Shown: one piece after another, positions 1,892 to 29,033 of the stretch
Layout: every line of letters starts with the position of its first letter
Position numbering within the stretch: the stretch's first letter is position 1
Assembly (NCBI RefSeq): GCF_009811795.1
Contig: NZ_BLJE01000005.1
Span: 62,001-126,000, forward strand
DNA length: 64,000 nt
Origin: Litoreibacter roseus
GTDB taxonomy: Bacteria; Pseudomonadota; Alphaproteobacteria; Rhodobacterales; Rhodobacteraceae
Reading direction: 5' to 3'
The notes under the pieces: generated by a model
Told to the model about the DNA's origin: nothing
The model's database searches: none
What the model saw: only the letters and a program-made list of their open reading frames with translations
Program-made: the position numbers and the translations under genes

Positions 1892-1897
1892 GACGCG

Positions 1898-2176: not shown

Positions 2177-2179
2177 GCC

Positions 2180-8773: not shown

Positions 8774-8860
8774 GGTCTATTTCCTTTCGAAAAAGTTTCG
8801 GCCAGTTGTTCTTTCATTTAGATCGCTTCCGACGGTGATTGGACTGCCGCGCGCGATGCG

Positions 8861-10615: not shown

Positions 10616-10616
10616 T

Positions 10617-11048: not shown

Positions 11049-11656
11049 TGGTCCGTTTCCATGTGATGCCGGACCAGCGCCCAGTCACGTCCAGTCCGGC
11101 CAGTCCCTGCAAGGTTGATCCAGATCATCGCGAAGGCCTCAAGTAGGTGGGATTGCCGTATTGAGCCGAGGTATTGTGGGTCGAAGCCAGCATCACTGAC
11201 GACCTGCTCGGCGATGCTGCGGCTTTCGCCATCGGGGCCGGCAATGAGCATGAAGGGCTTGGCTCCGCCGAAGGAGTCTGGCTCGGCCAGCACCTCGACG
11301 CCCACCTGATTGAAGCTCTTGTAAACATCGGCTGCCTCGGCCCAGGTAGCGATATTCTCACCTGCAGACTGTCCCGGCTTCAAAGCAATGCGCGGACCCT
11401 CGTCGCCCATGTCGACGGCGTTGGTTGCATCGATGAGAACCTTGCCGGTCAGATCGCCCGCCGCCGCGATGACCGGCTCGGCTGCGGAGTACGGGACCGC
11501 AAGAAGTACGACAGCTGCATCCGATACGGCATCAGCGAACGACATCTCGCCATTCTTCGGTGCACGCACGCCATAGACGACCTCGTGTCCGGCTGCGGCA
11601 AGTATGCCGCCAATGCCTCGTCCGACGCCGCCAGCGCCCAAAACTGCAATCTTCAT
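11045..11656 (-). CDS. F420/NADP-reductase-like NAD(P)-binding oxidoreductase
   Basis: 203-residue protein with an N-terminal dinucleotide-binding motif (VLGAGGVGRGIGGILAAAGH, residues 4-23) and the AVVLLAVPYSA and VLIDATNAVD segments of the family that includes NADPH:F420 reductase and related NADP oxidoreductases. The host is not expected to use F420, so NAD(P)-dependent reduction of a small substrate is more likely. It is translationally coupled on both sides (4-base overlaps with the NmrA-type and SnoaL-like genes), which places it in the same pathway. Confidence 0.75.
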   Translation of the reverse strand: MKIAVLGAGGVGRGIGGILAAAGHEVVYGVRAPKNGEMSFADAVSDAAVVLLAVPYSAAEPVIAAAGDLTGKVLIDATNAVDMGDEGPRIALKPGQSAGENIATWAEAADVYKSFNQVGVEVLAEPDSFGGAKPFMLIAGPDGESRSIAEQVVSDAGFDPQYLGSIRQSHLLEAFAMIWINLAGTGRTGRDWALVRHHMETDQ

Positions 11657-12522: not shown

Positions 12523-13514
12523 TGTCCCGTCTCCTTGTCGGTCTCGATCGCGGTGAGCGGCAAACGTACTAGCGTCGCCTCTCCGGTTCCGCCGATGAAC
12601 ACACCGCCCGTCCCCAATGCGTAAAGCGTGGTGCCGTCCGGTGTGAGTTCGACCGCCGTCGCCCCATCGACATGTTCATCGAGCACTGGCTCCACGCTGC
12701 CATCGCGCGCGCGGACCAGTACCACATCGGTATGCGGCGCGAAGAACAACCTTCCGTCGGCAGCATACTTGAAATCGTCAATGCCGGGCAAACTTGCGAC
12801 ACGTTCTAGATCGCCCGAAGGCGCGCTATCCGCGCCTATGTCGATCCGGCTGAGTGATGCATCGGCGGAATTCGCAAGATAGAGCGCGCCGTCATGGATC
12901 TGAAGGCCATTGAGCCCGAAACCCGCCGGATCTTCTGGGGCCAGGCTCGGGTCCTCGAACCAAACCGAAGCAAGGTCGGATTCCAGATTAACTTGCCAAA
13001 CCCGACCCGTTGCAGAGTCACCCAGAAGGGCAACAGTCTGGGACAATAGTGCCATGCCATTAAGGGCTGCGGCTTGTGGTAGATCGATAGTTTCGCGGAT
13101 CTCGCCATCATATGCGACGATCATCACGACGTTGCCGAGACCATCTGCGGTCGGCGCCGCCATCGACCCACGATGCGCAAGCACCACGAATTCGCTATCC
13201 CGGGCGACGACATTCATCGCATGCGCTCCGAGATCAATCGGCGTCTGCAAGCCCCCGCCCGGGCGCCAGATCTCAAGGCGCTTCGCGGTGTAATTGGTGA
13301 AGACCACGTCGCCATTCGGTGCGATCTCGAGATTCTCGAGGAAAGTTCCAGGTGCGAAACGGGCGAGCACCTCGGATTTTGCGATCGGCTCGGTTGGGGT
13401 TTCCGCCTCAGAAGCGCCGCCCGAGCAGGCTATTAGGAGCGCGATCCCCGTCATGCAGCCCGCCGCTCGTCGCCAACCAGTCACGCATCGCGCAGAGATG
13501 ACATCAAAACTCAT
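12519..13514 (-). CDS. SMP-30/gluconolactonase-like beta-propeller lipoprotein
   Basis: 331-residue predicted lipoprotein with a six-bladed SMP-30/gluconolactonase-like propeller. The N-terminus has a basic start, a hydrophobic stretch and the lipobox IACSGG, so it probably sits in the periplasm on a membrane. Repeated strands such as FLENLEIAPNGDVVFTN, GNVVMIVAYDGEI and TAVELTPDGTTLYALG mark the blades. A longer frame begins at 13586, but the ATG at 13514 overlaps the upstream stop (ATGA) and gives a clean lipoprotein signal, so I prefer it. It is related to the propeller encoded at 18774-20156. Confidence 0.75.
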   Translation of the reverse strand: MSFDVISARCVTGWRRAAGCMTGIALLIACSGGASEAETPTEPIAKSEVLARFAPGTFLENLEIAPNGDVVFTNYTAKRLEIWRPGGGLQTPIDLGAHAMNVVARDSEFVVLAHRGSMAAPTADGLGNVVMIVAYDGEIRETIDLPQAAALNGMALLSQTVALLGDSATGRVWQVNLESDLASVWFEDPSLAPEDPAGFGLNGLQIHDGALYLANSADASLSRIDIGADSAPSGDLERVASLPGIDDFKYAADGRLFFAPHTDVVLVRARDGSVEPVLDEHVDGATAVELTPDGTTLYALGTGGVFIGGTGEATLVRLPLTAIETDKETGQ

Positions 13515-14191
13515 CCGACCATTCCTTCGATCTCGGAACCGTCCACGGCATGCATCAGCCGCGGCCAGATAAGCCACTGCCACCAAGTGTGCGCTATCGC
13601 AAAGAGGCTTCCGTGGTGCTCGCTTCCGTCGGCAATACGCTCATCGGCTGGGTCCGTGGGCAGCACGAGAGTGTGCGCGTTTGTTTCTTCGATCGCGCGA
13701 ACATGAAGGTCAGGATGGAATGTACCGCCCATCTCGGCCTCGAGCGCTTCCCGCGGCGCTGACAAAAGAGCAGCCCGCCACTCAGGGTCCGTCCAGCTTC
13801 GCCCAATTATCTGGACGTTGAGCGCGCCGAGGAAGGGGTCGACCACCTCGCCGTGCTCGCGGCGCATCCACCAGTAAAAGCCGTGCGCAAGCATCCACCA
13901 GTCGGAGATCTGCTCGTAGCGATACCAGAGCTCAGTTTTGGGCGGGATACGCGGAACGACGAAGATGAATTCATCGGTCGCCTTGTCAACAATCCGAAGG
14001 TCCATGCCTTCAGGTTCGGGCAACCCTGTCAGTTCGAAATAGGTCTTCGGGCTTTCGGCCAACTTCTGCCGAAGCGCGGCATCCTTCCAAGTGAGATGAC
14101 CCAATTCAGCCGCGAGAGACTCGCGGTAAGGACCGAAGGGGCGAACATCAATGCCGCTCCAAGTGCTCTTGGTTTGCAGTTTCTGGGTCAT
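13511..14191 (-). CDS. Protein with two tandem nitrile-hydratase-leader-like (NHLP) units
   Basis: 226-residue cytoplasmic protein of no family I can name. It contains two segments that match the pattern of nitrile-hydratase-alpha/NHLP leader domains. Unit one (~33-83) has LTWKDAALRQKLAESPK and ends FIFVVPRIP. Unit two (~131-181) has SWTDPEWRAALLSAPREAL and ends HTLVLPTDP. Each unit is followed by a Trp-rich stretch (SDWWMLAHGFYWWMR at 97-110; HTWWQWLIWP at 201-210), so the whole protein looks like an internal duplication. The catalytic VCTLCSC cluster of nitrile hydratase is absent. NHLP leaders are known from proteusin-type peptide precursors, but no maturase is visible nearby. A GGA-rich site (AAAGGAAC) precedes the ATG by about 10 bases. 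It heads a set of five coupled genes. Confidence 0.6.
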   Translation of the reverse strand: MTQKLQTKSTWSGIDVRPFGPYRESLAAELGHLTWKDAALRQKLAESPKTYFELTGLPEPEGMDLRIVDKATDEFIFVVPRIPPKTELWYRYEQISDWWMLAHGFYWWMRREHGEVVDPFLGALNVQIIGRSWTDPEWRAALLSAPREALEAEMGGTFHPDLHVRAIEETNAHTLVLPTDPADERIADGSEHHGSLFAIAHTWWQWLIWPRLMHAVDGSEIEGMVG

Positions 14192-14292
14192 GGCAATTCA
14201 GTTCCTTTTCCAATTGCGGCCGATTGCACCATCGCCTCAACCGCATGATCTCCGGCTTGGGCGCAGGTAACGACGGCACTGATACCTGCGAC

Positions 14293-14787
14293 TTATGTAC
14301 CGTTCTCCGGCACGGTCCGCGGCGGCGCGCCGGGCGCCCCATTGTCGATTGTCCAAGATCCCGCCGTTCTAAAGGCATTGGCGATGGCGAAGGTGTCCTC
14401 GTAGAAGTGGTAGGATGCGATTTTTCCCTGGCGCACCACGGCATGCATGGCGAAGTCGCTATCGGCGGCGTGCCCGGTGGATTTCGCCACAAAGCGGAGT
14501 GTGCCGAACACAGCCACCTGGTCGCCGTCGACAATGAACGTGTGATCATCGAAGCCGCGAACTTCAAAGTTCGCATTCAGAAGTTCCTGAAAAGCGATAA
14601 TCTCAGCGATCCCGGTCCACGTCCCGGCCCAGGGAATGGCCTGTTTGGTTTCGGGTGACATCTGCTCGCTGGCAAAGTTCAGATAGACCGCATCTTCCGT
14701 GAAGAGGTCGGGAATGAGGTCGCGCCAGTTGGCCTCGCGAAAGCTGGCATAATACGCGCGTACGGTCGCTTCGGGGGAGCGTGTCAT
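14293..14787 (-). CDS. SnoaL-like (NTF2-fold) protein 2
   Basis: 164-residue SnoaL-like protein. The opening SPEATVRAYYASFREANW, LFTEDAVYLNF and GSW positions, the IPWAG segment and the closing ASYHFYEDTFAIANAF fit the NTF2-like fold used by cyclases, isomerases and dehydratases. The frame is open up to 14970, but the ATG at 14787 has a good ribosome-binding site (GAGG, about 8 bases upstream) and starts where the fold starts, so I chose it. It is paralogous to the protein encoded at 10617-11048. It lies 58 bases after the SDR gene and 101 bases before the NHLP-like gene. Confidence 0.75.
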   Translation of the reverse strand: MTRSPEATVRAYYASFREANWRDLIPDLFTEDAVYLNFASEQMSPETKQAIPWAGTWTGIAEIIAFQELLNANFEVRGFDDHTFIVDGDQVAVFGTLRFVAKSTGHAADSDFAMHAVVRQGKIASYHFYEDTFAIANAFRTAGSWTIDNGAPGAPPRTVPENGT

Positions 14788-14845
14788 CTTGTGATCCTCT
14801 TCATATCCGTCTGCTTCTGTTGCGGGCTCCTGAAGGCTGGTCGCA

Positions 14846-15577
14846 TCACCATGGCAGCGCGCCTTCCCTGTTGCGAAAACTTCCATCCGGCGCATCGACG
14901 CCGCCGGTCGCAATGCCGAGCGCGAGGTCTGCCGCATCCTCAGGCGTATTGGGAGCATCCGGCCCGCCAATGTCGGTTTGCGTCCAACCAGGGCACATGG
15001 CGTGTACGGTAACAGACGTGTCTCTCAGTGCCTTTGAAAGAAGCGCAGTGACCCCGTTCAACGCCATCTTCGATAGTCGATACGAGCCCGCCTTCATCGA
15101 AGCATAGTCATTTTCAGGATCGAGGGTCGCGGCGATCGACCCGGCTTCGGAAGAGACGTTAATGATGCTGGCACCATCCCTCGATGCTTCCAGCAGAGGC
15201 AGCAAGGCCCGCGACATGCGCAAGGGGCCAATCGCGTTGATCGCAAGAGAGGCTTCTATATCCTCATAAGACGCGGCAACAATGTCGTGCTCCTGGCCAA
15301 CATTTATTCCGGCATTGTTGATCAGAACGGATATGCTCGAATGGGCCTTGGCGAGCGCATCTGCCGCAGCGTCTATTGATGCGGGGGCGGTCACATCGAG
15401 CGGCATGGCTTCGGCGCTACCGCCCTTCGCTGCTATAGCTTCCCGGACCTCTTCTGCTTGCGCCGCGTCGCGCGCACCGATCACGACGTGGTAGTCCGCG
15501 TCCGCGAACCGGAGCGCGGTGGCACGGCCGATGCCGCGATTGGCGCCGGTGATGACTGCGACCTTCGCCGCGCTCAT
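14846..15577 (-). CDS. Short-chain dehydrogenase/reductase (SDR)
   Basis: 243-residue classical SDR. It has the NAD(P) motif VITGANRGIGRATALRF (residues 8-24), the NNAG motif (ISVLINNAG), the catalytic Ser region (NVSSEAGS) and the active-site Tyr-x-x-x-Lys (SYRLSKMAL), followed by MCPGWTQTDIGG, where substrates bind. It should oxidise or reduce an alcohol/carbonyl, and the substrate is unknown. The open frame extends to 15730, but the ATG at 15577 overlaps the aldehyde dehydrogenase stop and begins exactly at the Rossmann fold. Coupling with the dehydrogenase suggests successive alcohol and aldehyde oxidation. Confidence 0.88.
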   Translation of the reverse strand: MSAAKVAVITGANRGIGRATALRFADADYHVVIGARDAAQAEEVREAIAAKGGSAEAMPLDVTAPASIDAAADALAKAHSSISVLINNAGINVGQEHDIVAASYEDIEASLAINAIGPLRMSRALLPLLEASRDGASIINVSSEAGSIAATLDPENDYASMKAGSYRLSKMALNGVTALLSKALRDTSVTVHAMCPGWTQTDIGGPDAPNTPEDAADLALGIATGGVDAPDGSFRNREGALPW

Positions 15578-17097
15578 GATGTGGCCTCCGCAATGGACGG
15601 CAACCAGATGGATTTGGTCTGAGTGTAGTTCTCCAACACCTGTCGTCCGCATTCTCGGCCAAAGCCGGATCGCTTGTATCCGCCGAACGGAACCGACACG
15701 TCGAAATAATTGTAACTGTTGATCCAGCAAGTGCCGGCTTTAAGGGCGTTCGCGACGCGTAGGGCCTTGGCCATGTCCGTCGTCTGCACGCCCGAGGCGA
15801 GACCGAACGTGGTATCATTGGCGATGCGGATCGCTTCGGCCTCGTCATCGAAAGGAATGACCGTCAGAACCGGCCCGAAGATTTCCTCTTGAGCGATGGC
15901 CATGTCGTTTGTGCCAAGAAAAATCGTCGGTTGGTGGAACCAGCCTTTGCCGCCCAATCCTTCAGGCTCTGCCCGTTCGCCGCCATAGCGCAGGTCAGCA
16001 CCGGCCTCGCGGCCCTTGCGGACATAGCTCTCGACCTTCTTCAACTGACCTTCATCCGCCATCGGGCCGAGGAATGTCGCGGCATCAAGCGGATCGCCGA
16101 TGACGAGTGCACCCGCAGCTGCGACCAGTGCCGCGAGAACCTCTTCAAGAGCCGAACGCTCCACCAGAAGACGCGATCCTGCGGTGCAAATTTCGCCCTT
16201 GTTGTAGAAAATGCCGAAGATCGCGTTTTGTATCGCGTTATTCATGTCTGCATCGGCGAAGATGATATGGGCCGACTTGCCGCCCAGCTCCATCGTCACC
16301 TTCTTCACTGTGTCGGCGCTCTTCGCGATGATCCCTTTGCCGACACCGGTTGAGCCAGTGAAGGCGATCTTGTCGACATCAGAGTGTGTCACCAGCGTGT
16401 CGCCAATCTCCGATCCGGGTCCGGTCACGAGGTTGTAGACCCCTGCGGGCACGCCCGCTTCCTCGAACGCCATGGCGAGGCGCACGGCAGAAAGCGGCGT
16501 GGCCGAGGCGGGCTTATGGACGATCGTGTTCCCAGCCGCCATGGCTGGCGCGATCTTGGTCGCCGAGAGCAGTAGGGGGAAGTTGAAGGGTGTGATGGCC
16601 GCCACAACGCCGACCGGCTCGCGCACGGACATGACCTGACGTGCTGCATGGTCGGGTGGCGGTGAGACGGTGCGCGCATCACCATCCGGATCAGCTGCCG
16701 CCGCGCCAAAGAAACGGAACAAATCCGCAAGAAGGACGGCATCGATGCTACGGGCGAACTGGATGGGCTTGCCCATATCGAGCGTCTCGCAGCGCGCGAA
16801 ATCGTCAGCATGGCGCTCGACGATATCGGCGACCGTCATCATCAGACCTTGACGCTCCGGCGCTGGCATGCGGGCCCATTCTGCATCGTCGGCGCGTCGC
16901 CGCGCCGCTGCAATGGCCGCTTCAACATCATCCTTGCCTCCCTTGGCGACAGTGGTGATGACAGACTCGGTCGTCGGGTCGACTGTTTCCATGCGATCAC
17001 CTGAGGCACTCTCGCGCCAAGTGCCGTCGATATAGAGCTGACAGTCCTCGACGGGAGACGTTCGGGTGTCGGTTGCGCAAGTTGCTGCGTTCTGCAT
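15574..17097 (-). CDS. NAD(P)-dependent aldehyde dehydrogenase
   Basis: 507-residue aldehyde dehydrogenase of the ALDH superfamily, full length. The catalytic residues are in place: Asn172 (ITPFNFP), general base Glu270 (MELGGKS) and nucleophile Cys304 (GEICTAGSR). The cofactor-binding FTGSTGVGKG lies at 246-255. It oxidises an aldehyde to the acid in the cytoplasm. The SDR gene starts inside its stop codon. The 168-base gap upstream carries a copy of a 16-base sequence (17191-17206) also found in front of the propeller-porin pair, so it probably has its own regulated promoter. Confidence 0.92.
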   Translation of the reverse strand: MQNAATCATDTRTSPVEDCQLYIDGTWRESASGDRMETVDPTTESVITTVAKGGKDDVEAAIAAARRRADDAEWARMPAPERQGLMMTVADIVERHADDFARCETLDMGKPIQFARSIDAVLLADLFRFFGAAAADPDGDARTVSPPPDHAARQVMSVREPVGVVAAITPFNFPLLLSATKIAPAMAAGNTIVHKPASATPLSAVRLAMAFEEAGVPAGVYNLVTGPGSEIGDTLVTHSDVDKIAFTGSTGVGKGIIAKSADTVKKVTMELGGKSAHIIFADADMNNAIQNAIFGIFYNKGEICTAGSRLLVERSALEEVLAALVAAAGALVIGDPLDAATFLGPMADEGQLKKVESYVRKGREAGADLRYGGERAEPEGLGGKGWFHQPTIFLGTNDMAIAQEEIFGPVLTVIPFDDEAEAIRIANDTTFGLASGVQTTDMAKALRVANALKAGTCWINSYNYFDVSVPFGGYKRSGFGRECGRQVLENYTQTKSIWLPSIAEATS

Positions 17098-17190
17098 GGT
17101 CAGTCATCCTCCGTTGCACGACCAGAATTCGATCGATAAATGATGATAGCCGACGGGAACGGCCGTGTTTTCTACCGGACGCGCATGCCT

Positions 17191-17206
17191 TTGCACGATA
17201 CCAACA
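17191..17206 (-). promoter_or_regulatory. candidate AraC-type operator, copy 1
   Basis: A 16-base sequence beginning TTGCACGATAC that recurs with a single mismatch at 20321-20336. This copy lies about 95 bases upstream of the aldehyde dehydrogenase start. Both copies precede leftward transcription units of the same cluster, and the AraC genes are close by, so a shared operator is a reasonable inference. The site itself is seen directly; the binding protein is not. Confidence 0.45.
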
Positions 17207-17265
17207 TCTAGCGGATCAACTGGCTCGGCTTGCTCCATTCGCTCGTTTGATGCGAACAAGCCCGA

Positions 17266-18777
17266 TCAAAAACGAAACCGCCCCAGGAATTGGAGCCGCG
17301 ACGCATCGGCCTGCTCGCCGGATTGTGTTTCGCGCGCTCCGATGACTATTTCCGCGCCCAGATCGACCATGGCAACCGGCGACCAGACAAGATTTACGGT
17401 ACCGCTCTGCAGCATTCGTGGATCGTCATCATCAAGGCTCTGCGTTCGGCCAACTACAATGAGCCCGTAGGTCGCCGTGCTTCGCAGCGTGTTGGACCAC
17501 CAATGCTGATAGCCGGCATGTGCCGTCCATGTTGGGACGGTCTGCAGCGTTCCGTCGGCACTCACGGTTCCGTCAAGACCGTCGAATGCCAGTTCGAGAT
17601 GATAGCGCCCAATGCTCTCACCGCCGCCAACGCCGAACACCAGATTGTCGCGGTCTCCAAGGAAGGGCAGGTCGATGCGGCCGGTCATATTCAGGCCCCA
17701 CCCAATCTCGCTGTCGGGACGGGTCTTGCCATCGATCTCTGTACGCGCTCGCAGCGCGCGTACCAAACCCACTAGGCGTATTCGGCCCCAGTCGCGTTCC
17801 AGGGTCATCCCGGCAAGCAGATCGGGCCAGTTGTCGAGGCTTTCGGTGGATTGGGGCCCCGAAAACCGGCTCGCCGGGTTCTCGGCGGCGATGGCATAGG
17901 ACAGGTCTGCCGACAAATCACCAACATAGCGTATCCCGACCTGCCTCACCACCGACTTGCCCGTCGGCGATGTGGGGTTAAGCGTTTCGGCAAACGATTC
18001 AACATCAGAGAAAAGCGACCAGTATTGGCCCGCATAGAGATTGCCGAGCTGGCCATAAGCATGACGAAGGCGCAACCCATCACCGTTAGAAGTTAATGGA
18101 TTGCCCTCTGCCCCATTGAAATCTGCTTCGATGAAGGCCCTAAACAAGCCGCGTTCGGTATCCCCGCGAACGTCAAGATTGAGGCGGCTGCTATCAGCGA
18201 AGATAGCGGTGCGCGATGCATTTGGCGCGGCTAAGCGAATGAGGCTTGGCAGGAACGCCCCATCGGCTATCCCGTTGCCGAAAGACCGATTGAGATCAAC
18301 CTGCGCGAACCCTCCAATCCTAAACGCAAGAAGACTACCTGGGATCTTGATCGAATTGTCAAAACTGCCCGGCCTGACGACTGTATCGTCCGGAAATCGG
18401 CCTATCTCGCCATCGGTGCGGCCTTGCCTGTTAATCGGTTCGTCATAGACCCCGTCGCTGCTCACAGGAATTGACGCTTGAGGCACTACCGAATCAATAG
18501 CGGGCTCCGCCAACATCGCTATCGACGGCTCGCTGCCTCTTGCTCTGTCGTCAAGTCGGCGCTCCAGTTCATCAATACGTTCGCCTTGTCGGCGGATCAG
18601 CTCTTCCTGCCTTTCGATGATTGCGATCAGGTCCGGGAGTGTCTGCGTGGGCTGTGCGGCGACAGGCGAGGTGGGAAGACAGGTGCAAAAAAGCGCCATC
18701 GATCCGGCGAACGCTGGCGGCAATACCCGTCGTGTACATTTGGCAAGATTCGAAGAACAGATCGACAAGGCGGTCAC
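17266..18777 (-). CDS. DcaP-like outer-membrane porin
   Basis: 503-residue outer-membrane protein. After a signal sequence (about residues 1-40, ending VAA) there is a coiled coil (~52-75, IIERQEELIRRQGERIDELERR, shortened) of the kind that trimerises DcaP porins. A beta-barrel of alternating strands follows and ends FLGRFRF with the C-terminal Phe needed for barrel assembly. The segment FDNSIKIPGSLLAFRIGGFAQ marks the start of the barrel in this family. Such porins import small, often acidic or aromatic, compounds. Its ATG overlaps the stop of the propeller/YCII gene, so uptake and the propeller protein are made together. Confidence 0.8.
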   Translation of the reverse strand: MTALSICSSNLAKCTRRVLPPAFAGSMALFCTCLPTSPVAAQPTQTLPDLIAIIERQEELIRRQGERIDELERRLDDRARGSEPSIAMLAEPAIDSVVPQASIPVSSDGVYDEPINRQGRTDGEIGRFPDDTVVRPGSFDNSIKIPGSLLAFRIGGFAQVDLNRSFGNGIADGAFLPSLIRLAAPNASRTAIFADSSRLNLDVRGDTERGLFRAFIEADFNGAEGNPLTSNGDGLRLRHAYGQLGNLYAGQYWSLFSDVESFAETLNPTSPTGKSVVRQVGIRYVGDLSADLSYAIAAENPASRFSGPQSTESLDNWPDLLAGMTLERDWGRIRLVGLVRALRARTEIDGKTRPDSEIGWGLNMTGRIDLPFLGDRDNLVFGVGGGESIGRYHLELAFDGLDGTVSADGTLQTVPTWTAHAGYQHWWSNTLRSTATYGLIVVGRTQSLDDDDPRMLQSGTVNLVWSPVAMVDLGAEIVIGARETQSGEQADASRLQFLGRFRF

Positions 18778-20156
18778 CGGTCGCGGGAAACCTCGTCCGG
18801 CCAGGCCACCGCTCCGATCATGGAGCCCAGCATCACATCGAATGGCTCGGCGTCGCAGCTGCTGTAAACACCTTCGGTAAAATAGGGAGACCCTTCCATC
18901 ATCGCCTCAGCGCGCGCTTCGTCTAAACCGTGCATGAAATAGAGCCGAGCCGTCGGCTCCGCTTTCCGCCCATCGCCGTAGACCTGCCCTGCAAATGCAA
19001 TCCGGGTCATATTAAGCTCAAGAAATCTGGTGTAGTCAGGCGCGGCAGCTCGCCGCCTCTCATCCGATCCCGACGCGGTGATACACCGCACCACCGCCAT
19101 GCTGGCGGCGCGCTCCATACCGGGATAGGCAAGATGAGAAAGGCTTGCCGCAAGCGATAAGCCCGGCTCGCCCGCATCGATGGCAACTACATTTGCTGCT
19201 GCAGGGTTTTCTGGATCGAGGTAGAAACCTCCATCGCCAACGACATAGAGCGTATTTCGGTCCTCTGTACGGCGGCCGAATGCCGCCGCCGTTGATCCTG
19301 CAACGCCCTGCTCGGCGCGAGCGATGGTCGTGGCAGACCCGTCCTGCTCAATCCGGATCACGCTGTCATAGATGTGGGTGGTGCCGTAGATCGTCCCGTC
19401 TGCAGCGATCGCGAGATCGTCGAGTACTACATTTTCCGAAACCGTCTCAGGCTCTCCCGCGCGATGATCTGGCCCGATGAGGGAGATGCGCAAAACAGTC
19501 ATACGGCTGGAATTAGTCGCGTAGACCGAGCCATCGAATAACTTCAACCCATTTACCGCTGGTAGCAGAGGATTGCGATCCGGATGTGATTGGAGAACTT
19601 CGCCCGACAGCCATATCCGTACCTCTCCGGTATCGGTATCGACCTGAAGAATCGTTCCGGCTCCTGAGTCCGCAACCAGCAACTGACCGGGCGAGACAAA
19701 CGTAGTACCGTTCAGGAATTGCGCCCCTTCGATTGGGATGGTTCGCTCAAGCTCGCCATCATCATGAAATATAAAGACCGCGCCGGTACCGTCTGCAGTC
19801 CTGCCGGACGAGACGATCCGACCATCGATATCGACAGCCAGACCCACCGGCTGGATATCCGAATGATGAAACAGCGTGCGCGTTCCGGTCGACGAAACTC
19901 GCCAGACTATATGGCCGATGGCCTCAGTGATCAGCAGGTCTCCGTTCGGAAGAACGATCACGCTTTCGAGAAAATTTCCCTTTTCGAAAGCAGCAACGAT
20001 ATTGGACGGCAGCGGCTCGAAGGCTGTGTTTTTCTGCGGCAGAATTGAGACATCGATCCGCGGCTGCGACGCAGCGGGAGCGGCGAAAACGAAAGCAGCA
20101 ACGACCAAGGCCACAGCGCCATTCCATGTCCTCGGACTAACTGATCTGAGCTTCAT
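18774..20156 (-). CDS. Exported beta-propeller (SMP-30-like) fused to a YCII-like domain
   Basis: 460-residue exported protein. A signal peptide (about 1-30, ending ASQP) leads into an SMP-30-like propeller (~45-340) with blade motifs such as FLESVIVLPNGDLLITE, GLAVDIDGRIVSSG and DDLAIAADGTIYGTT. From ~360 to 460 a second domain follows with FLELNMTRIAFAGQVYGDG, ARLYFMHGLDEARAEAMMEG and SPYFTEGVYSS. This is the layout of YCII-related dimeric alpha/beta-barrel proteins, which often have a catalytic or binding His/Asp pair. The combination is unusual. The propeller half is related to the lipoprotein at 12519-13514. It is the first gene of the leftward unit and overlaps the porin gene by 4 bases. 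Confidence 0.7.
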   Translation of the reverse strand: MKLRSVSPRTWNGAVALVVAAFVFAAPAASQPRIDVSILPQKNTAFEPLPSNIVAAFEKGNFLESVIVLPNGDLLITEAIGHIVWRVSSTGTRTLFHHSDIQPVGLAVDIDGRIVSSGRTADGTGAVFIFHDDGELERTIPIEGAQFLNGTTFVSPGQLLVADSGAGTILQVDTDTGEVRIWLSGEVLQSHPDRNPLLPAVNGLKLFDGSVYATNSSRMTVLRISLIGPDHRAGEPETVSENVVLDDLAIAADGTIYGTTHIYDSVIRIEQDGSATTIARAEQGVAGSTAAAFGRRTEDRNTLYVVGDGGFYLDPENPAAANVVAIDAGEPGLSLAASLSHLAYPGMERAASMAVVRCITASGSDERRRAAAPDYTRFLELNMTRIAFAGQVYGDGRKAEPTARLYFMHGLDEARAEAMMEGSPYFTEGVYSSCDAEPFDVMLGSMIGAVAWPDEVSRDR

Positions 20157-20311
20157 GTGTTATTTCTCCTTGGTGCTGCCGCGCTGGACTGGAAGCGCCG
20201 GCAATTGGGGACCGTACCTCAAGGCCGGAACCCTAAACTCCAGTACGTTGAGCAGTGCTGCTCTATGATCTGATGTTAGCTGCCGAGAAAGGTGGTGTTT
20301 ACCATCAATTA

Positions 20312-20336
20312 ATCGTGCTATTGCACGATACGAACA
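20312..20336. promoter_or_regulatory. candidate AraC-type operator, copy 2, with inverted repeat
   Basis: A perfect 7-base inverted repeat (ATCGTGC, 4-base loop, GCACGAT; 20312-20329) overlaps the second copy of the 16-base TTGCACGATAC-type sequence (20321-20336; one mismatch with 17191-17206). It lies just past the AraC gene end and ~155 bases upstream of the propeller-porin start. It could be an operator or, less likely, a weak hairpin at the end of the AraC transcript; there is no T-run. Confidence 0.45.
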
Positions 20337-20351
20337 ACATGCCGCTAGAAT

Positions 20352-21269
20352 CTAGGAAAGACGGGTTTCCTGCCGCGCAGCGGCGGGCGTTTTTCCGAAA
20401 GCACTCTTGAAACAGCGTGTCAGATGACTCTGATTTGCAAAGCCGCAACGGTAGGCGATCTCGGCGATCGAGAGGTGCGTCGACAACAGCATTTCCTTTG
20501 CCCGCTGGCAGCGGCGTCGGGTGACATAATCCCAAACCGGATAGCCCGTAGTCATTTTGAAGGTGCGTGAGAAATGCCCAGGCGATAGGCAGGCGACTGC
20601 GGCCAGTTCGGAAATTGTCATCGCATCGCCGAAATACGACTCAATATAGTCGATCACCCGAGCGATGCGCTCATCCTCCGGGCGGGCGCCACCCAATGGC
20701 GCGAGGTCACTCGCTCCGGACAGTTCAGCCAAAAATTGCAGCGTCAGGCCGTCGAATAGGAGATGGTCTTTCGCTTCCGGCTTTTGCATCACACTCCACA
20801 TTCTGTCCATGAGTCGGGAAACCGTGACCGGCGTGGCCAGACAGCGGCCGATCCACCGTCCGAAGTTCGCCCCATCTAGAGCTATCCCTGCATCCAGCAT
20901 TTCGTCGGTGAGGGCAGCTACAGGAAAGGCGAACTGTGTGAGCGCGTGGGCATCATTAACCCTCGTCCTGCTCGCACTTTGTGCTGGGTAGATTGTAAGT
21001 CCGCTTGCGAATCTGTCGCTTACGACCGGACCGTCGCCACAGTCGATCAATACCTCAGCCATCACACTGTCCCCGCGACAGAAAACGATTTCGGGTACGG
21101 GCGCGTCGATGAAATCAATCGGCTCTTGTTCAACCTTCATCATCGTCACGCCGAAAGACCCACCACGCCGAAGCTGCTGTGGAAATGCGGCGTAGGCCGA
21201 ATCGCTGTAAAAATCGGCATGGGTGTTGAACTTGGCCCCGGGATCAGCAGCGTGCTGAGGAGCGGTCAT
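20352..21269 (-). CDS. AraC-family transcriptional regulator 1
   Basis: 305-residue AraC-type regulator. The N-terminal ~190 residues form a cupin-like sensor domain, opening with HADFYSDSAYAAFPQQLRRGG (shortened). The C-terminal double helix-turn-helix (~205-300) contains MTISELAAVACLSPGHFSRTF and LSIAEIAYRCGFANQSHLTR. Its position directly upstream of the propeller-porin unit suggests that it controls the cluster. Its DNA-binding half is almost the same as in regulator 2 (22051-22821), while its sensor half resembles that of regulator 3 (23530-24432). Confidence 0.9.
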   Translation of the reverse strand: MTAPQHAADPGAKFNTHADFYSDSAYAAFPQQLRRGGSFGVTMMKVEQEPIDFIDAPVPEIVFCRGDSVMAEVLIDCGDGPVVSDRFASGLTIYPAQSASRTRVNDAHALTQFAFPVAALTDEMLDAGIALDGANFGRWIGRCLATPVTVSRLMDRMWSVMQKPEAKDHLLFDGLTLQFLAELSGASDLAPLGGARPEDERIARVIDYIESYFGDAMTISELAAVACLSPGHFSRTFKMTTGYPVWDYVTRRRCQRAKEMLLSTHLSIAEIAYRCGFANQSHLTRCFKSAFGKTPAAARQETRLS

Positions 21270-21536
21270 GACGCACAGGCCCCAGCATACCGGCTGCTCG
21301 GGCCACGCGAGTGGCGCGCGCTGCTACCGGTCAGCTCGGAATCGCGAGTGCTTCGTATCCATCCGACTACTGGCGAGCCGCAGCCAACCACGTAGGGAGG
21401 GCCTCGGTGCTCTGCTTCAATCTGCTGTAATTCAGTCGACATCACGACTGCGTATAACACCGCTAGCGATTTTTTCAGAACGAAGTTGACCGAAATTATT
21501 GCAGAATGCGCACGACAGTTTGCAGCTTTCTGCTAT

Positions 21537-21743
21537 TTAGCTCGCTTCAACTGCTAGGCAACAGCCTTGGATCTTGCTCTCGTTTGCTGATGCAATCTTG
21601 GCTTTTATCCAAGCTTCGACTTCGCTCTCCTGCCACGCTACCATAGGTTCCTCAACGAGCGCAGGCGAGTTTTTGTGAGAAGCATGTGCGGACCTTTTCA
21701 GTTTGGGTTTTACAAAGGCCGCAAAAATGTCTGGAATGTCCAA
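21537..21743 (-). pseudogene. AlpA-like regulator remnant
   Basis: An open frame of 68 codons whose C-terminal half (PMVAWQESEVEAWIKAKIA) matches the end of AlpA-type prophage/ICE excision regulators, where a W-x-E-S-E-V-x-A-W-I pattern closes the winged helix. The expected N-terminal helix-turn-helix is not present in any frame upstream, so I read it as a truncated copy. Small AlpA-like genes are typical near the ends of integrative elements, which fits its place ~3 kb from the tRNA. Confidence 0.4.
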
Positions 21744-21944
21744 GAGTGGAAGGAACTTTCCAAGACAATCTGAAGGTCGAATACCCTAGATTTTTGAGAT
21801 TTTTATAGACAATCTGGGAGAGCAAGAGATGGTGCTCCTGAAAGGACTCAAACTTGTGGCATTCGGTTCTGGAGTTTCAAGTGTTTTGAGAACGTCGGAG
21901 GCGTCTCAGTTTCCATATGATCGCGCGGCATATCGGTGAATGAC

Positions 21945-22014
21945 TGCCGACTGCGTTGTCTCAGGTGATCGTCCCAGGTTGCTACCAGGTTCACTTCCAT
22001 GAAGCGCCTTGGCT
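21945..22014 (-). repeat. 70-base fragment of the MFS exporter gene tail
   Basis: This stretch is identical to 9033-9102 except for one base (T for C), and encodes PRRFMEVNLVATWDDHLRQ in a short open frame (21848-22060). The sequence on both sides is unrelated to the MFS gene. It is therefore an orphan fragment left by duplication or recombination, not a gene. Confidence 0.8.
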
Positions 22015-22050
22015 GCCGTTGCACAATTGGGACGAGATCGCGCTTAAACC

Positions 22051-22821
22051 TTAGGTGCAATGGAGCCCATTGCGTGCCGCTGCTGGGGTGACCCCGAAAG
22101 CCTCCTTAAAGCACCGTGTCAGGTGGCCTTGGTTGGCGAAGCCACAGCGATAGGCGATTTCGGCGATCGAAACGCTTGTCGTCAGCAACATCTCCTTCGC
22201 TCGCTCGCACCGACGGCAAGTGACATAGGCCCAAACCGGAACGCCCATCGCCGCCTTGAAAGTCCGGGAAAAATGACCGGGCGAAAGACAGGCAATGCCA
22301 GCAAGTTCTGCAATCGTCAGCGCATCGCCGTAGTGGGTCTCGATGTAATCGACACTGCGCGCTATGCGGTGATCGAGGCGATCCATGAGGTCCAATCGCT
22401 CCTGCTGAGCGCGCACGCGCGACGCAACGAGAAGCTCGATCACGCTCAACATCGGGTCAATGATCTCGCTCGCGGTGTAGGATGAGCCCCAAGCCCTACG
22501 CAGAAGCTGTCCGATCAGCCGGTCACCTACGCGTTGCGGAAACGGCGGTGCGGGAAGATTATCCATCCGCGCGCTCAAGACACGGCCTCTCACACAAGCG
22601 CTGGTGCTGTCCCCTACAGGCAAGAGAACGAGTTCGCCAACGCTCAGCCTCCCGTGAAGGTCTGTCAGGCTGAATTCTTTCGCCTGGCAGTCGAGCACCA
22701 GGACGATTTCGCACTGCTCACGCTCAGGCCAAACTTCTCCACGCCTGAAAGTGATGAGGCGCAGGCGCTGATCAGCTGTCGTGTTTGCTGAATCCTGGAT
22801 GTTGAATTCGGACTGCCTCAT
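22051..22821 (-). CDS. AraC-family transcriptional regulator 2
   Basis: 256-residue AraC-type regulator with a short N-terminal sensor domain (~1-140) and a C-terminal double helix-turn-helix (~155-250: LTIAELAGIACLSPGHFSRTF and SIAEIAYRCGFANQGHLTR). The DNA-binding half is very close to regulator 1, so both may recognise the same sites, but the sensor halves differ. The sensor half instead resembles the stand-alone protein encoded at 22917-23378 (shared LIG-LL-RAW-SS pattern). Confidence 0.88.
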   Translation of the reverse strand: MRQSEFNIQDSANTTADQRLRLITFRRGEVWPEREQCEIVLVLDCQAKEFSLTDLHGRLSVGELVLLPVGDSTSACVRGRVLSARMDNLPAPPFPQRVGDRLIGQLLRRAWGSSYTASEIIDPMLSVIELLVASRVRAQQERLDLMDRLDHRIARSVDYIETHYGDALTIAELAGIACLSPGHFSRTFKAAMGVPVWAYVTCRRCERAKEMLLTTSVSIAEIAYRCGFANQGHLTRCFKEAFGVTPAAARNGLHCT

Positions 22822-22916
22822 ACAGATCAGAAAGCAAATTCGTTTAGGCCCGTATTCCGCGCAGATGTTGATTCAAGAATTGGAAATCCAGAACGCTCGA
22901 CGATTCTGAAAAAATT

Positions 22917-23378
22917 TCAGTTTAACCTTGGATGCGCACCGCCATGCTCAGCCCGCGAGGCCATTTCTTCGTGGATCAAGAGCCGCACCAACGCCAGCGA
23001 AGTCTCTGCAATTTCATCGGAACTGCGCCAAGCACGCGAGCAGAGCAAACCGATCAGTGCCTCGGCTAGGGGCCCGACGTACTCTGTGACCACAAGCCCC
23101 GGAAGCACCACGCGAAGCGCCCTCAGATGGCCCGAGATTGATAGCGTTGCCCCCGGTGGCAGCAGAATGGCAGCGCCTGACCGGTCTCGGCCGTTCGTTC
23201 CCGACCAGCGGGCACGGCCACGCCCAGCGTTGCGCAGGAAAATCTCGAAATCGTCACCGGCGACAACAGTGTCGTCCTTGCTCAACATGACATAGCAGAT
23301 GCTGCCAGTACTGAGGTCGCGCCGGGACCCGTCGCTGGAACTGACCACAGGTGGCGGTTTGGAGGTTCCGAAGGTCAT
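22917..23378 (-). CDS. Stand-alone AraC-type sensor domain lacking DNA-binding part
   Basis: 153-residue protein related to the N-terminal sensor half of regulator 2: VMLSKDDTVVAGDDFEI and later ALIGLLCSRAWRSSDEIAETSLALVRLL align with the same positions there. The frame stops where the helix-turn-helix domain should begin. It may be a decayed regulator, or a functional decoy that forms mixed dimers with the full-length AraC proteins. The open frame reaches 23543, overlapping the divergent regulator 3 start, but the first 55 residues look random. The ATG at 23378 is my choice and is not certain. Confidence 0.5.
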   Translation of the reverse strand: MTFGTSKPPPVVSSSDGSRRDLSTGSICYVMLSKDDTVVAGDDFEIFLRNAGRGRARWSGTNGRDRSGAAILLPPGATLSISGHLRALRVVLPGLVVTEYVGPLAEALIGLLCSRAWRSSDEIAETSLALVRLLIHEEMASRAEHGGAHPRLN

Positions 23379-23529
23379 TCCAGAAAGGTCGCACCAATTA
23401 GCGCGCAGGTATTTCACATTCGTCGACCGACGAAGTCTGAATTCTCGACGATTACAGAATACTGGATCACTTTGTGCTATATAGTGTTTTGAAGTTCTGG
23501 CCAATTGCACGCGAAAGGAGGCGGAAAAA

Positions 23530-24432
23530 ATGACACAGCACACCGCACCCTCGCTAGCAGATTTTTACAATGATCCGTCCAGTCCTTACGCAGGATTCCC
23601 TCAGGAACATCGCTCCGGTGGATCGATACCGCTGAAACTGCTTCGCGCTGAGCAGCAGCCATTTGAAGGTACAGATCCTGCTGTGCCGGAATTGGGGCTA
23701 ATCCTGGTGATGCGCGCTGACATGCCATTCCGTTGGAACGTCGGTGATGGCCTTACCGACGAAACAACTTATCGAAGCGGCTGTCTCAGCTTCGTTCCAC
23801 CGGGGACGGCTGTAGATTTCTACTGCTATGGGGAACATGAACTCATAGACATTCTTCTTCCCGCAGCTGAGATTGAAGCGCTGCTTGAGGATCATGGCGC
23901 GGGTAGCCTATCAGACTTGAACTCTCTGACCGGAGCCACACTTTTCCGAGACGACACTCTCCGCCGCACCGTCATGCAGATGTGGACCGAGAGCGCGCGG
24001 ACAGGTGGCACCAGCGACCTGCTGATGGACGGGCTGACCCAAGTCCTGATCGCGCGGCTGCTCGACAAGGCAGGCGCGCTCCGCCGACCGCAGCCGATCC
24101 TGCCGCTCAGCCCCGACGAGATCACACGCATCGACACGCTGGTCGAGCACCGGCTTGCCGAACGGCTCACTGTCGAAGACCTTGCAAGCGCACTCGACAT
24201 GCCCCGCTGGACCTTCGCCGACGCCTTCAAGGCCACCACTGGCGACACGCCGCACGTCTATGTCACCGGCAAGCGTCTGGACAAAGCCTGCGAACTCTTG
24301 CGTCTGGGCGACATGCCACTCGCCGAAATCGCCTACGCCACCGGCTTCGCCTCCCAGAGCCACATGACCGACACCTTCCGCCGCGTGCTGGGCACAACGC
24401 CAGGGAAGTGGCGGCGGGAGGCGCGGCAGTAG
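23530..24432 (+). CDS. AraC-family transcriptional regulator 3
   Basis: 300-residue AraC-type regulator on the plus strand. Its sensor half begins SLADFYNDPSSPYAGFPQEHR (shortened), closely echoing regulator 1. The C-terminal double helix-turn-helix (~200-298) has TVEDLASALDMPRWTFADAF and PLAEIAYATGFASQSHMTDTF, clearly different from regulators 1 and 2. A strong ribosome-binding site (AAAGGAGG, 23514-23521) precedes the ATG. It is the last gene before the tRNA boundary of the element. Confidence 0.9.
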   Translation: MTQHTAPSLADFYNDPSSPYAGFPQEHRSGGSIPLKLLRAEQQPFEGTDPAVPELGLILVMRADMPFRWNVGDGLTDETTYRSGCLSFVPPGTAVDFYCYGEHELIDILLPAAEIEALLEDHGAGSLSDLNSLTGATLFRDDTLRRTVMQMWTESARTGGTSDLLMDGLTQVLIARLLDKAGALRRPQPILPLSPDEITRIDTLVEHRLAERLTVEDLASALDMPRWTFADAFKATTGDTPHVYVTGKRLDKACELLRLGDMPLAEIAYATGFASQSHMTDTFRRVLGTTPGKWRREARQ

Positions 24433-24799
24433 GGCCTCCGGCTGCCGTCCGGCGCCATCGCTATCCGCCGTATTGTGCGAGCGAACTGGTCGTAGGCCGC
24501 TGCCAGCCGAACGTAGCGCGACTGCTTAGGAATAGTTCGCATCTCATCGCGGGTTGGCATTCGCACCGTCGGCGTCATTTCGCATCAAGGAGTACTCACT
24601 GGCACGGCAGCGAACCATTTCTCACGTGGTGGTGCGCGTGAGATTCGAACTTACCGCAAAAACCGACTGACTTAGTTGGCGATATCGCTCCAGCACGCCA
24701 TAATTGCCTGATTGTCTACGCAAAATCGCCGCGCAAGCACCACGTAAGCAGCAAAGCTCCGCGGCGCCGTTTTCTAAGATATTGATTTATTGAGAGAAA
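24433..24799. other. intergenic, right end of the element
   Basis: 367 bases between AraC regulator 3 and tRNA-Arg. No gene is recognisable. At 24630-24655 the minus strand reads like the end of a tRNA (TTCGAAT T-loop, four of five T-stem pairs, ending GCACCA) but with ~3 acceptor bases missing, so it may be a decayed tRNA or attachment-site remnant. No integrase gene is present at this end. Confidence 0.5.
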
Positions 24800-24876
24800 T
24801 GGCGCACCCGACAGGATTCGAACCTGTGACCTTCGGCTTCGGAGGCCGACACTCTATCCAGCTGAGCTACGGGTGC
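24800..24876 (-). tRNA. tRNA-Arg(CCG)
   Basis: A complete 77-base tRNA including an encoded CCA end. The acceptor arms GCACCCG/CGGGTGC pair fully, the anticodon stem TCGGC/GCCGA encloses the loop CTCCGAA with anticodon CCG (reads codon CGG), and the T-arm ACAGG-TTCGAAT-CCTGT is perfect. It lies between the conjugative-element genes to the left and chromosome genes to the right, the classic place for an ICE attachment site. Confidence 0.96.
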
Positions 24877-25215
24877 TCTATTTCTTCCTACTGCTTACGC
24901 AGTGCTTACTCGAAACATTGACTCGTTTGAATAGCGGTTCCGACATCCGCTCAAGCCATTGTTTCGCAAACTTATTCTTCCAGTTCCCTTAGCAACCGCC
25001 AGACTTGACATCCGCCTTCGGAGGGCAGCGCTCTATCCAGCGGAGCTATGGGTGCCTCAGCGCGGTATAGCCAGCTTGATCCGGTGGTGCAATGGCGGCC
25101 ATGTCCAAAATGCCGCCCAAAAATTAATACTTTTTCTGAATCACAGAAAATGGTATCGCCATGATTGTTTCAAGAGTGGCGCCAATTTGGCGTATTTTTA
25201 ATTAGGAGTATTTCC
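24877..25215. other. intergenic across the element boundary
   Basis: 339 bases between the intact tRNA-Arg and the haem peroxidase. It contains the truncated tRNA copy (25011-25055), and the stretch 24877-25010 carries no gene. The part from ~25056 on is the promoter region of the peroxidase gene. Confidence 0.5.
25011..25055 (-). pseudogene. truncated tRNA-Arg(CCG), 5' half only
   Basis: 45 bases matching the tRNA-Arg 5' half: acceptor strand GCACCCA, D-arm AGCTCCGCTGGATAGAGC, anticodon arm CTGCC-CTCCGAA-GGCGG. The similarity ends at the base of the anticodon stem, with no T-arm or 3' acceptor strand beyond. The anticodon stem differs from the intact gene at paired positions on both sides, yet still pairs, so this is a remnant of a different tRNA-Arg(CCG) allele and not a recent copy of its neighbour. 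Confidence 0.85.
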
Positions 25216-26694
25216 ATGGTACAGATGTTCCACGGCCTTTCCCGCTATGACTATCTCGTAAAGGAATGCCTCAATGCTCATGCATTGAACGATTCCGCGC
25301 CGTTTCCGCAGGTGTTCGGTCGGCTTTTTCATGAAAACCCGGTTACCGGTAATTTGAGCACATCGCATATTGTCGATGCATTTGATGCGTTGGTGGAAAC
25401 AATGCGCACGGATGAAATTAACGACGGTCCCGCAGACGCCGGTATGACATTTTTGGGCCAGTTCGTGGATCATGACGTGACTCTCGACGCTCAGAGCGCC
25501 ATCGGAACGCGCATTGATCCGCGCTCTATCCGCAACATCAGAACGCCCAATCTGGATCTGGATTGCGTCTACGGGGACGGGCCGGAAGCGACGCCGTTCC
25601 TTTATTCGCCCGACCATGAAGGCTTCATGCTGATGGGACGCGAAGACAATCCCAATGATCTGCCACGCAACTGCAAAGGGCGCGCGCTGATCGGTGATCC
25701 GCGCAATGACGAAAACATCATTGTTAGCCAGATCCAAGGCGCCTTCATTCAGCTGCATAACATCCTCATGAGCCATGTGGAGGAAGAGGATGACACCGCC
25801 AAGGACGTGCATGATTGTGCCGCCATGGGCATCCGCAGCGAAATTTGGAGCGAAGTGGTCGCCCCGAAATTGATGGGGTTTGAGCAGGTGCGACGGTTCA
25901 TCCGGCTGCACTATCAGTGGATCGTCCTTCACGAGATGTTGCCGGCCTTCGTCGATCAAAAAATCATCGACCATGTTCTGGCCCATGACCCCTTCCCCAA
26001 CGCCCCTATCATGCCAGCAGAATTTTCCGGCGCGGCGTACCGGTTCGGGCATGCGACGGTGCAACCGACCTACAAATTAAAAAAGGGCGGTGACCCGGTC
26101 CATCTGTTCGAAATGCTCGGCTTCTCGCCCCGTGGAACGGAGAGCGATATCGAGATGCGGATGTTCTTTGATGTTGCGGGCACAGCGGCGCAGAAGGCCC
26201 TGCCTGTCGGTATCGAAATGGCTGATACCCTGTTCCAACTGCCGGGCAACATTGTTGGTGGTGGTCTGGAATGGAACGGGCATGAGATTCCGCTCGAACA
26301 GGCCAGAAAACTGGGGCTCAGAAACATCCTCCGGGACCGCTCCGCGCTGAAGCTTGCTTCTGGCCAGCAAGCGGCGGCCAAACTGGGCCTGGACGCATTG
26401 GCGCCCCCGACGGCGCTGACGGACCATCATATCGATAAAACGCCGCTCTGGTTTTACTGCCTGCAGGAAGCATCCGAGAAAGGCAAAGGTCGGTTGACCG
26501 GCGTCGGAGGACACATCGTGGCTTCGGTTATCATACGGTTGTTGCGTCTGGATCCGGAAAGTGTCCTGAACCTGCATCATTTTGAGCCTTGGCATGGCTT
26601 TGGCGGTGCCGATTGCACGATGGGACGGATGATGGAGTACGTTGAGACACACCGAGACCATGTGACCCACCGCGAAGATCTTTTCTGCGGCTAA
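25216..26694 (+). CDS. Animal-type haem peroxidase (An_peroxidase family)
   Basis: 492-residue haem peroxidase of the peroxidase-cyclooxygenase superfamily. The distal haem pocket motif GQFVDHDVT holds His86, and the proximal motif EFSGAAYRFGHATV holds His279. The family usually oxidises halides or organic substrates with hydrogen peroxide. There is no signal peptide, so it acts in the cytoplasm or leaves by a non-Sec route. The ATG at 25216 follows AGGAG by 7 bases; an upstream in-frame ATG at 25165 lacks such a site. It is the first gene right of the tRNA boundary, and an inverted repeat follows its stop. Confidence 0.88.
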   Translation: MVQMFHGLSRYDYLVKECLNAHALNDSAPFPQVFGRLFHENPVTGNLSTSHIVDAFDALVETMRTDEINDGPADAGMTFLGQFVDHDVTLDAQSAIGTRIDPRSIRNIRTPNLDLDCVYGDGPEATPFLYSPDHEGFMLMGREDNPNDLPRNCKGRALIGDPRNDENIIVSQIQGAFIQLHNILMSHVEEEDDTAKDVHDCAAMGIRSEIWSEVVAPKLMGFEQVRRFIRLHYQWIVLHEMLPAFVDQKIIDHVLAHDPFPNAPIMPAEFSGAAYRFGHATVQPTYKLKKGGDPVHLFEMLGFSPRGTESDIEMRMFFDVAGTAAQKALPVGIEMADTLFQLPGNIVGGGLEWNGHEIPLEQARKLGLRNILRDRSALKLASGQQAAAKLGLDALAPPTALTDHHIDKTPLWFYCLQEASEKGKGRLTGVGGHIVASVIIRLLRLDPESVLNLHHFEPWHGFGGADCTMGRMMEYVETHRDHVTHREDLFCG

Positions 26695-26700
26695 TCTGAT

Positions 26701-26731: not shown

Positions 26732-26741
26732 TCCTTGCGTG

Positions 26742-29030: not shown

Positions 29031-29033
29031 AGA

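Follow-up and report, generated by a model that had tools for sequence, protein, structure and literature searches.

Alphaproteobacterial integrative and conjugative elements that appear to split the host tRNA-Arg(CCG) gene and to carry a whole replacement for it

In the window (the whole 64,000-nucleotide stretch of DNA analysed here, positions 62001-126000 of contig C5 in a 27-contig, 4.47-Mb assembly), one whole and one broken copy of a tRNA-Arg(CCG) gene lie on the same strand, and the question raised by this locus is how the two came to stand side by side. The first-pass annotation had proposed that an element integrated inside the tRNA gene and brought a full replacement with it. The intact copy was called by ARAGORN, the 5' piece (25055-25011, minus strand) is likewise real, and the gap between the two is 134 bases, all as annotated; the two copies are also separate alleles, as had been claimed, because the native gene, once rejoined, and the intact copy are alike at 65 of 77 bases. 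The same annotation had placed the end of the fragment exactly at the base of the anticodon stem. A 5' piece is present there, but its exact end has to be moved: identity to the native gene is unbroken only to position 42, with positions 43-44 reading GG in the fragment and AG in the native gene. The features of the locus are collected in Table 1.

A search of the window's own genome with the window region recovered 45 bases of tRNA-Arg, positions 33-77, at C6:27174-27218, adjoining an integrase gene; this is the matching native 3' half that integration inside the gene had led the annotation to look for. The integrase starts about 115 bp from the half and reads away from it as a 463-amino-acid tyrosine integrase frame with Arm-DNA-bind_3 and Phage_integrase domains (Pfam), a pair that we take to mark a P4-type tyrosine integrase. 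When the C5 and C6 halves were joined in silico at CTCCGAAGGC, a 77-base tRNA-Arg(CCG) resulted (ARAGORN), and this core is found at both ends of the element, inside the host tRNA gene. A functional tRNA is rebuilt at neither attL nor attR, and the halves are orphaned in this genome as well as in its relatives. Insertion inside the tRNA is borne out, but not the proposed point near position 44; the crossover instead maps to positions 33-42, which belong to the anticodon loop and its stem and lie somewhat to the 5' side.

A relative of the same genus that lacks the insertion (G018) has an uninterrupted tRNA-Arg(CCG) at 1379135-1379211 (minus strand), directly between two homologous and collinear flanks: genes at 1350469-1377802 are homologous to C6:40759-69487, and genes at 1379367-1389467 are homologous to window positions 25165-35402. 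Because the flanks of the split gene are adjacent in this relative, its locus represents the empty site. The roughly 13.5 kb beside the 3' half (C6:27219-40758, with a MerR regulator and a metal-transporting ATPase; loci L049 and L247) is absent from that place in G018, which points to a probable further insertion next to the split tRNA. The element itself would span C5 and C6, with a size and continuity that we infer. The empty site also bears on a simpler account, in which a local duplication left the fragment behind as a pseudogene, the intact copy being native. Two tRNA-like copies close together on one strand would suit such a history; however, the missing half lies elsewhere beside an integrase gene and fits by complementarity, homology stops at the same core in most loci, and collinearity with G018 indicates one uninterrupted gene at this site, so that duplication and decay can be given almost no credence.

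Table 1. Coordinates of features in the window.
Feature	Position	Strand	Basis or remark
trb-type conjugation genes: TraG/VirB4-like P-loop protein, TrbL, CagX/TrbG, TrbI	1..6418	+	Pfam
Accessory genes (LysR, MBL-fold, MFS, SDR, aldehyde dehydrogenase, DcaP/porin, AraC regulators)	6614..24432	.	Pfam
Second arm-like pair, inverted, past the cargo tRNA	24730..24750	+	
Cargo (replacement) tRNA-Arg(CCG), complete with CCA, element-borne	24800..24876	-	ARAGORN
Element side of attL (putative P' arm), from core to cargo tRNA	24877..25013	-	Begins GGATGTCAAG, as in many relatives
Tandem arm-type-like repeat GAGTAAGCA-CT-GCGTAAGCA beside the cargo tRNA	24892..24911	-	Spacer alignment of relatives
att core CTCCGAAGGC, 10 bp (anticodon loop and three stem bases)	25014..25023	-	Also at the element's other end
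5' part of native tRNA-Arg(CCG), positions 1-42 (attL)	25014..25055	-	Rejoins with the C6 half to a perfect tRNA
First chromosomal gene past attL, haem peroxidase family	25165..26694	+	Homologue beside the uninterrupted tRNA-Arg(CCG) of G018

The 42 tRNA genes found in this genome (Rfam) include no other tRNA-Arg(CCG) besides the intact copy; their arginine members carry the anticodons CCG (in the intact copy alone), ACG, TCT and CCT, and the intact copy is the sole CGG-reading tRNA found in the genome. The 3' half, the empty site and this single full copy support the first-pass proposal of an element inserted in a tRNA gene and carrying a full replacement. Together with the repetition of the layout in other genomes and the paired stems of the cargo genes, described below, the split halves, the relative's empty site and the single full copy make it very probable that an integrative and conjugative element (ICE) splits the host's only tRNA-Arg(CCG) through a core in the anticodon loop and carries a whole spare gene that would take over CGG decoding.

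Everything to the left of the tRNA pair had been annotated as conjugative-element DNA. The trb genes at one edge of the window agree with that description, as do a TraG coupling protein and a relaxase-like protein with DUF3363, both encoded to the left of it (C5:52458-56318), but this agreement does not extend to the mobility of every gene in between. The parts of an ICE are present in this genome on two contigs: an integrase beside att, a relaxase, a coupling protein and mating-pair genes. Tn4371-like ICEs have the same trb-type mating-pair genes, TraG coupling protein and DUF3363-domain relaxase; they differ from the present element in attachment site and tRNA strategy. Among 22 elements contained in single contigs (17 with ordered ends and those of G378, G315, G422, G440 and G310), a TraG-type coupling protein (PF02534) and TrbI (PF03743) were found inside 21, the one element without them being an 18-kb element in G537. 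The arrangement that the first-pass annotation had named as evidence against itself, two tRNA copies without conjugation genes, was thus seen in one of 22, and its reading stands with 21 of 22 carrying these genes. The element in G315 holds two sets of PF02534 and PF03743 and the longest reading of that in G547 holds three, fitting tandem elements. In a phage collection the integrase had no match at E 1e-40; with conjugation genes present and its integrase unmatched there, the element is not a temperate phage. On its gene content it is best described as an ICE that would work like tRNA-dependent lysogeny but is not lysogeny. Among the accessory genes, a 73-bp direct repeat (97% identical) was observed at window positions 9030-9102 and 21942-22014.

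To measure how widely the layout recurs, the joined native gene was searched in 148 related genomes; it matched in 143, and in at least five of the 148 (G083, G022, G042, G131 and G033) a full copy was closely preceded by a 5' half. Relatives of the integrase at E<=1e-60 were present in 19 of 394 family genomes, the window's own included. All 13 integrases with at least 57% identity, own excluded, had a tRNA-Arg 3' half beside int, one cut to 15 bases by a contig edge; two of five more distant family integrases had a 3' half, and three had none within 1.5 kb. Split or duplicated tRNA-Arg(CCG) layouts that look alike were observed at L109 (G056), L110 (G030), L104 (G022) and L111 (G033). In G022, G030 and G033 this integrase has no relative at E 1e-60, and other integrases or decayed elements may share the strategy there.

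An alignment of 12 integrases, scanned against named genomes, returned at least 80 loci, titled mostly Rhodobacteraceae, Rhizobiales, Sphingomonadales and other Alphaproteobacteria, with a few listed under other titles (e.g., Streptomyces sp. AcH 505 and a Burkholderiales MAG). Among the matches listed, a tRNA-Arg 3'-half match starting at position 28-33 lay upstream of int at 74 of 80 loci, some of these matches being cut by contig ends or diverged further on; the other six comprised three without a match (two of them having under 200 bp of upstream sequence), two with a complete tRNA (L184 and L198) and one partly masked (L186). The core CTCCGAAGGC was common to most of the integrase-relative loci among the matches listed. 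These loci correspond to 78 genomes, L173 being left out and two loci lying in one genome. Among the matches listed, a full tRNA-Arg(CCG)-like gene was found in 72 of 78 genomes, with none at the threshold used in six, and a same-strand 5' half 107-254 bp upstream of a further copy was found in 50 of 78, one of which (G485) has its further copy cut by a contig end; among the 28 genomes without such a pair, real absence is counted together with effects of contig edges, draft assembly and divergence. Before pairs were counted, matches that began at position 3 or 4 with 75-79% identity, and partial matches of the 4-65 type, were dropped and taken as other arginine or unrelated tRNAs, which was checked in part; 14 full-length matches with 75-79% identity, also dropped, later proved to be tRNA-Arg(TCT) in 13 cases and tRNA-Arg(CCT) in one. 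The 5' half, cargo and 3' half lie in order on one contig, over 18-132 kb, in 17 genomes among the matches listed.

Eight plasmid records matched the integrase, and four of them (L385-L388) were inspected. Three Bradyrhizobium plasmids (L386, L387 and L388) hold the integrase and a tRNA-Arg 3' half, with IS66 genes between half and int in L388; because the 3' half is present, these are integrated or remnant copies, in which an element end and a tRNA part were picked up by plasmids. The sequence of pAtK224b (L385) differs after CTCCGAA and is without a tRNA half. Neither a free circular form nor a free attP was found in the four inspected records; the arm-type repeat described below lies on the int side in L385, L386 and L387.

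Nine family genomes (the window's own and eight chosen for the layout) were added to assess whether the separated halves belong together. The resulting set of 87 genomes includes 57 that have the pair and 55 for which both halves are available; genome counts take each genome singly and ignore kinship. When the 5' half was rejoined with the int-side 3' half, Watson-Crick pairing was complete over the 12 positions of the acceptor and anticodon stems in 50 of 55 genomes, and when 3' halves were shuffled among genomes the fully paired count had a mean of 16.3 and a maximum of 26 (2000 shuffles). Combining the 5' half with the 3' part of the cargo gave full pairing in 1/55, and combining the 5' part of the cargo with the distant 3' half did so in 2/55. 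These counts weigh on the reading of the locus as an ordinary tRNA-targeting island, in which a 3' half carried by attP regenerates the gene at attL, so displacing the native end that is now seen as the far 3' fragment, and the 5' piece is debris. Such 3' restoration is the arrangement usually described in the relevant passages of a database paper and a review (PMC4383910, PMC8371274), and the intact tRNA with a far 3' fragment that Islander seeks is present here; a regenerated gene would, however, begin with the native 5' half, yet that half stands separately 134 bp upstream, and it is this half, rather than the cargo's, that pairs with the far 3' half. The ordinary island is accordingly very improbable, and a true split with replacement remains the preferred reading. 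The five exceptions to rejoining were G422, G440, G461, G480 and G524. In the first three, the stem of the 3' half is that of one cargo type, which would agree with an insertion into the cargo tRNA of a different element; the 5' half of G480 lacks one base, and in G524 one acceptor position is unpaired and the anticodon stem contains G-U pairs.

The architecture of the attachment site was then compared among the relatives. The sequence that follows the core at attL is not tRNA, i.e., attP is without a gene-regenerating tRNA part. Spacers between core and cargo align by class, with GTCAAG coming after the core in the majority of short-spacer elements. A tandem repeat built as CGNAAGCA-N1-6-CGNAAGCA was found in 46 of 57 attL spacers, 101-114 bp from the core start (none of 5700 shuffles), the strict motif being absent from 11, the window's own copy included; on the int side, within 260 bp of the core, the repeat occurs at 56 of 80 loci among the matches listed (none of 4000 shuffles). 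We read these CGNAAGCA tandem repeats as putative arm-type integrase sites. The inverted arm-like pair past the cargo is present in only 6 of 57 genomes, all of the 179-base spacing class, and the cargo tRNA begins 4 to 141 bp past the tandem repeat, in discrete classes. All 17 long-spacer elements have TTGAC 38-41 nt upstream of the cargo, followed in 15 of them by a -10-like TA (14 of 3400 shuffles), which makes a promoter of their own probable for these cargo tRNAs. Conserved blocks of other kinds are shared by the short-spacer elements (22 of 36 alignable on the arm). A simple scan of the window's own spacer gave no promoter-like site; transcription may reach the cargo by read-through from a host promoter that lies ahead of the 5' half.

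On this basis, the P4-type tyrosine integrase would act on the host's only tRNA-Arg(CCG) gene, recombining its anticodon loop with the 10-bp core of attP. As attP would hold no tRNA half, integration would truly split the gene, leaving the 5' half at attL and the 3' half at attR beside int, while the complete tRNA-Arg(CCG) just outside the P' arm sites would place a spare gene at attL after each insertion. This spare tRNA, if expressed and needed as we suppose, would take over CGG decoding, and precise excision from an element that is still mobile would restore the native gene.

The cargo genes were called tRNA-Arg(CCG) in 57 of 57 genomes (ARAGORN), partly by construction, as they were found with a tRNA-Arg(CCG) query. 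None of 1134 stem cells was unpaired, and 165 double differences from the host gene were counted (54 genomes, G480 left out); with stems fully paired despite such double differences, the cargo genes look functional. The window's cargo allele is identical to the copies beside 5' halves in G378, G461 and G470. Similarity to the host was considered as a guide to the source of the cargo and rejected, own host's split gene agreeing at 68.9 of 77 bases and those of other hosts at 68.2. Integrase similarity was correlated with spacing class (r 0.29; none of 2000 permutations) and weakly with cargo tRNA sequence (r 0.10; 48 of 2000 permutations), and because the latter correlation is weak no claim is made of strict co-inheritance of the tRNA letters. 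The cargo might also serve mainly another role, such as codon supply for the element or resistance to anticodon nucleases, with compensation for the split gene secondary. Functions of this kind are raised for phage tRNAs in parts of the actinobacteriophage work (PMC10865867), and a second complete tRNA-Arg(CCG) occurs in 6 of 50 genomes with the pair, so that not every cargo is the only copy; however, the other 44 have no second full copy, their lower-scoring full-length matches being Arg(TCT) or Arg(CCT), and the cargo isotype equals that of the split gene in 57/57, partly by construction of the query. Another main role is accordingly improbable, and replacement of the split gene remains the favoured function.

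The cargo genes also differ at the core itself. Pair 30:42 or 31:41 is changed in 29 of 57 cargo genes, and the core is kept in 28. With the comparison confined to genes of the form xxxCC/GGxxx, pair 30:42 was changed in 19 of 47 cargo genes versus 6 of 203 genomes in a class-wide sample (385 genomes, 203 with such a gene and 197 with its unchanged version), a difference with a Fisher p of 4e-11 when kinship is ignored; the six include one cargo gene, that of G131. An earlier estimate of core frequency, 34 of 35 uninterrupted genes, was discarded in favour of the class-wide sample because its loci were ranked by native-gene similarity. Altered core types stand at 5 of 79 readable int-side 3' halves, which indicates that insertion into altered genes happens and that any protection is incomplete. 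We raise, as a tentative suggestion that we would not yet favour, that the cargo acts as an addiction module, the host needing the element for all CGG decoding and its loss being lethal unless excision is precise, and that the cargo has been selected to change stem pairs by the anticodon loop and so to avoid the element's own integrase.

The principle of replacing a whole tRNA has precedents. Whole-tRNA replacement by conjugative elements is reported for Pasteurellaceae ICEs in tRNA-Leu in a paper that cites Dimopoulou 2002 for H. influenzae (PMC6028734); as in the present case, the element is conjugative, the tRNA gene stays disrupted at both ends and an intact copy of the same tRNA lies at one end. 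Those ICEs belong to Gammaproteobacteria, with tRNA-Leu and a XerD-family integrase, whereas the elements here belong to Alphaproteobacteria, with tRNA-Arg(CCG) and a P4-type integrase; no statement on arm sites, rejoining of halves or class-wide spread was found in the sections of that account at hand. Calling the whole-tRNA replacement notable, as the first-pass annotation did, was only partly apt, since it had already been described for the Pasteurellaceae ICEs. Tyrosine integrases, an att site in the anticodon loop and a displaced 3' tRNA fragment at one end are common to the present elements and Islander-type islands, as outlined in the database paper; those islands restore the gene from an attP fragment, whereas a whole spare gene is carried here (PMC4383910). 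Islander, going by that outline, would read an intact tRNA with a 3' fragment as an ordinary island with one end misplaced by the spacer and tRNA.

Among phages, tRNA-dependent lysogeny of actinobacteriophages was defined with experiments by Guerrero-Bustamante and Hatfull 2024 (PMC10865867), who, in the passages concerned, also name a Lactobacillus prophage as a likely further case. Shared with the present elements, on those passages, are a core of about 10 bp in a host tRNA gene, no rebuilt tRNA and a tRNA of the same isotype in the element. The actinobacteriophages are temperate phages, with tRNA-Lys-TTT as the founding case, and their need for the tRNA was shown by deletion and plasmid integration; in contrast, the elements here are conjugative and known from sequence alone. 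In Sinorhizobium meliloti, tRNA-Leu(UAG) is described in part of PMC11476347 as replaced by a phage-related sequence; this case is also alphaproteobacterial, and the split tRNA is replaced by the insert's gene for the same isoacceptor, which resembles genes of other species. It differs in the tRNA and in the phage-related nature of the sequences, and no att architecture was found described in that part of the paper. Passages of two further papers place a Paracoccus prophage at tRNA-Arg(CCG) (PMC6536676) and state that tRNA-Leu replacement is absent in phiLM21-like prophages (PMC12429752). Nothing found in the open-licence literature names replacement of tRNA-Arg(CCG) or this alphaproteobacterial group. 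The principle is thus already published for phages and Pasteurellaceae ICEs, and what appears to be new is a large alphaproteobacterial tRNA-Arg(CCG) group with a clear attP architecture.

If the replacement reading is correct, a large group of conjugative elements breaks and replaces a host tRNA gene, against the rule of reconstitution as phrased in the relevant part of a review, in which integration into a tRNA gene regenerates an intact gene (PMC8371274). Judged by record titles, the group comprises dozens of related elements spread over Rhodobacteraceae, Rhizobiales and Sphingomonadales. The host would depend on the element for one codon, its tRNA allele would be swapped for one of other origin, and the att site would be freed from matching the host tRNA beyond ten bases. 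Island finders that seek an intact tRNA with a displaced fragment probably file such elements as ordinary islands with one end mis-mapped. Cultivable type strains are among the listed relatives, which makes the dependence directly testable; Amaricoccus macauensis DSM 101730, Breoghania corrubedonensis DSM 23382 and Roseibium marinum DSM 17023 each have the element on a single contig.

Finally, two sets of loci hold unusual arrangements of the tRNA copies. The int-side 3' halves at L121, L128, L130 and L240 equal the window's cargo tRNA over 45-46 bases (GCCGA stem), which suggests either that the cargo gene of a different element was the insertion target or that elements lie in tandem. At G498:C93:4928-5336 (L278), two successive 5' halves lie 166 bp apart and are followed by one intact tRNA-Arg, the footprint expected from repeated insertion into cargo tRNAs.
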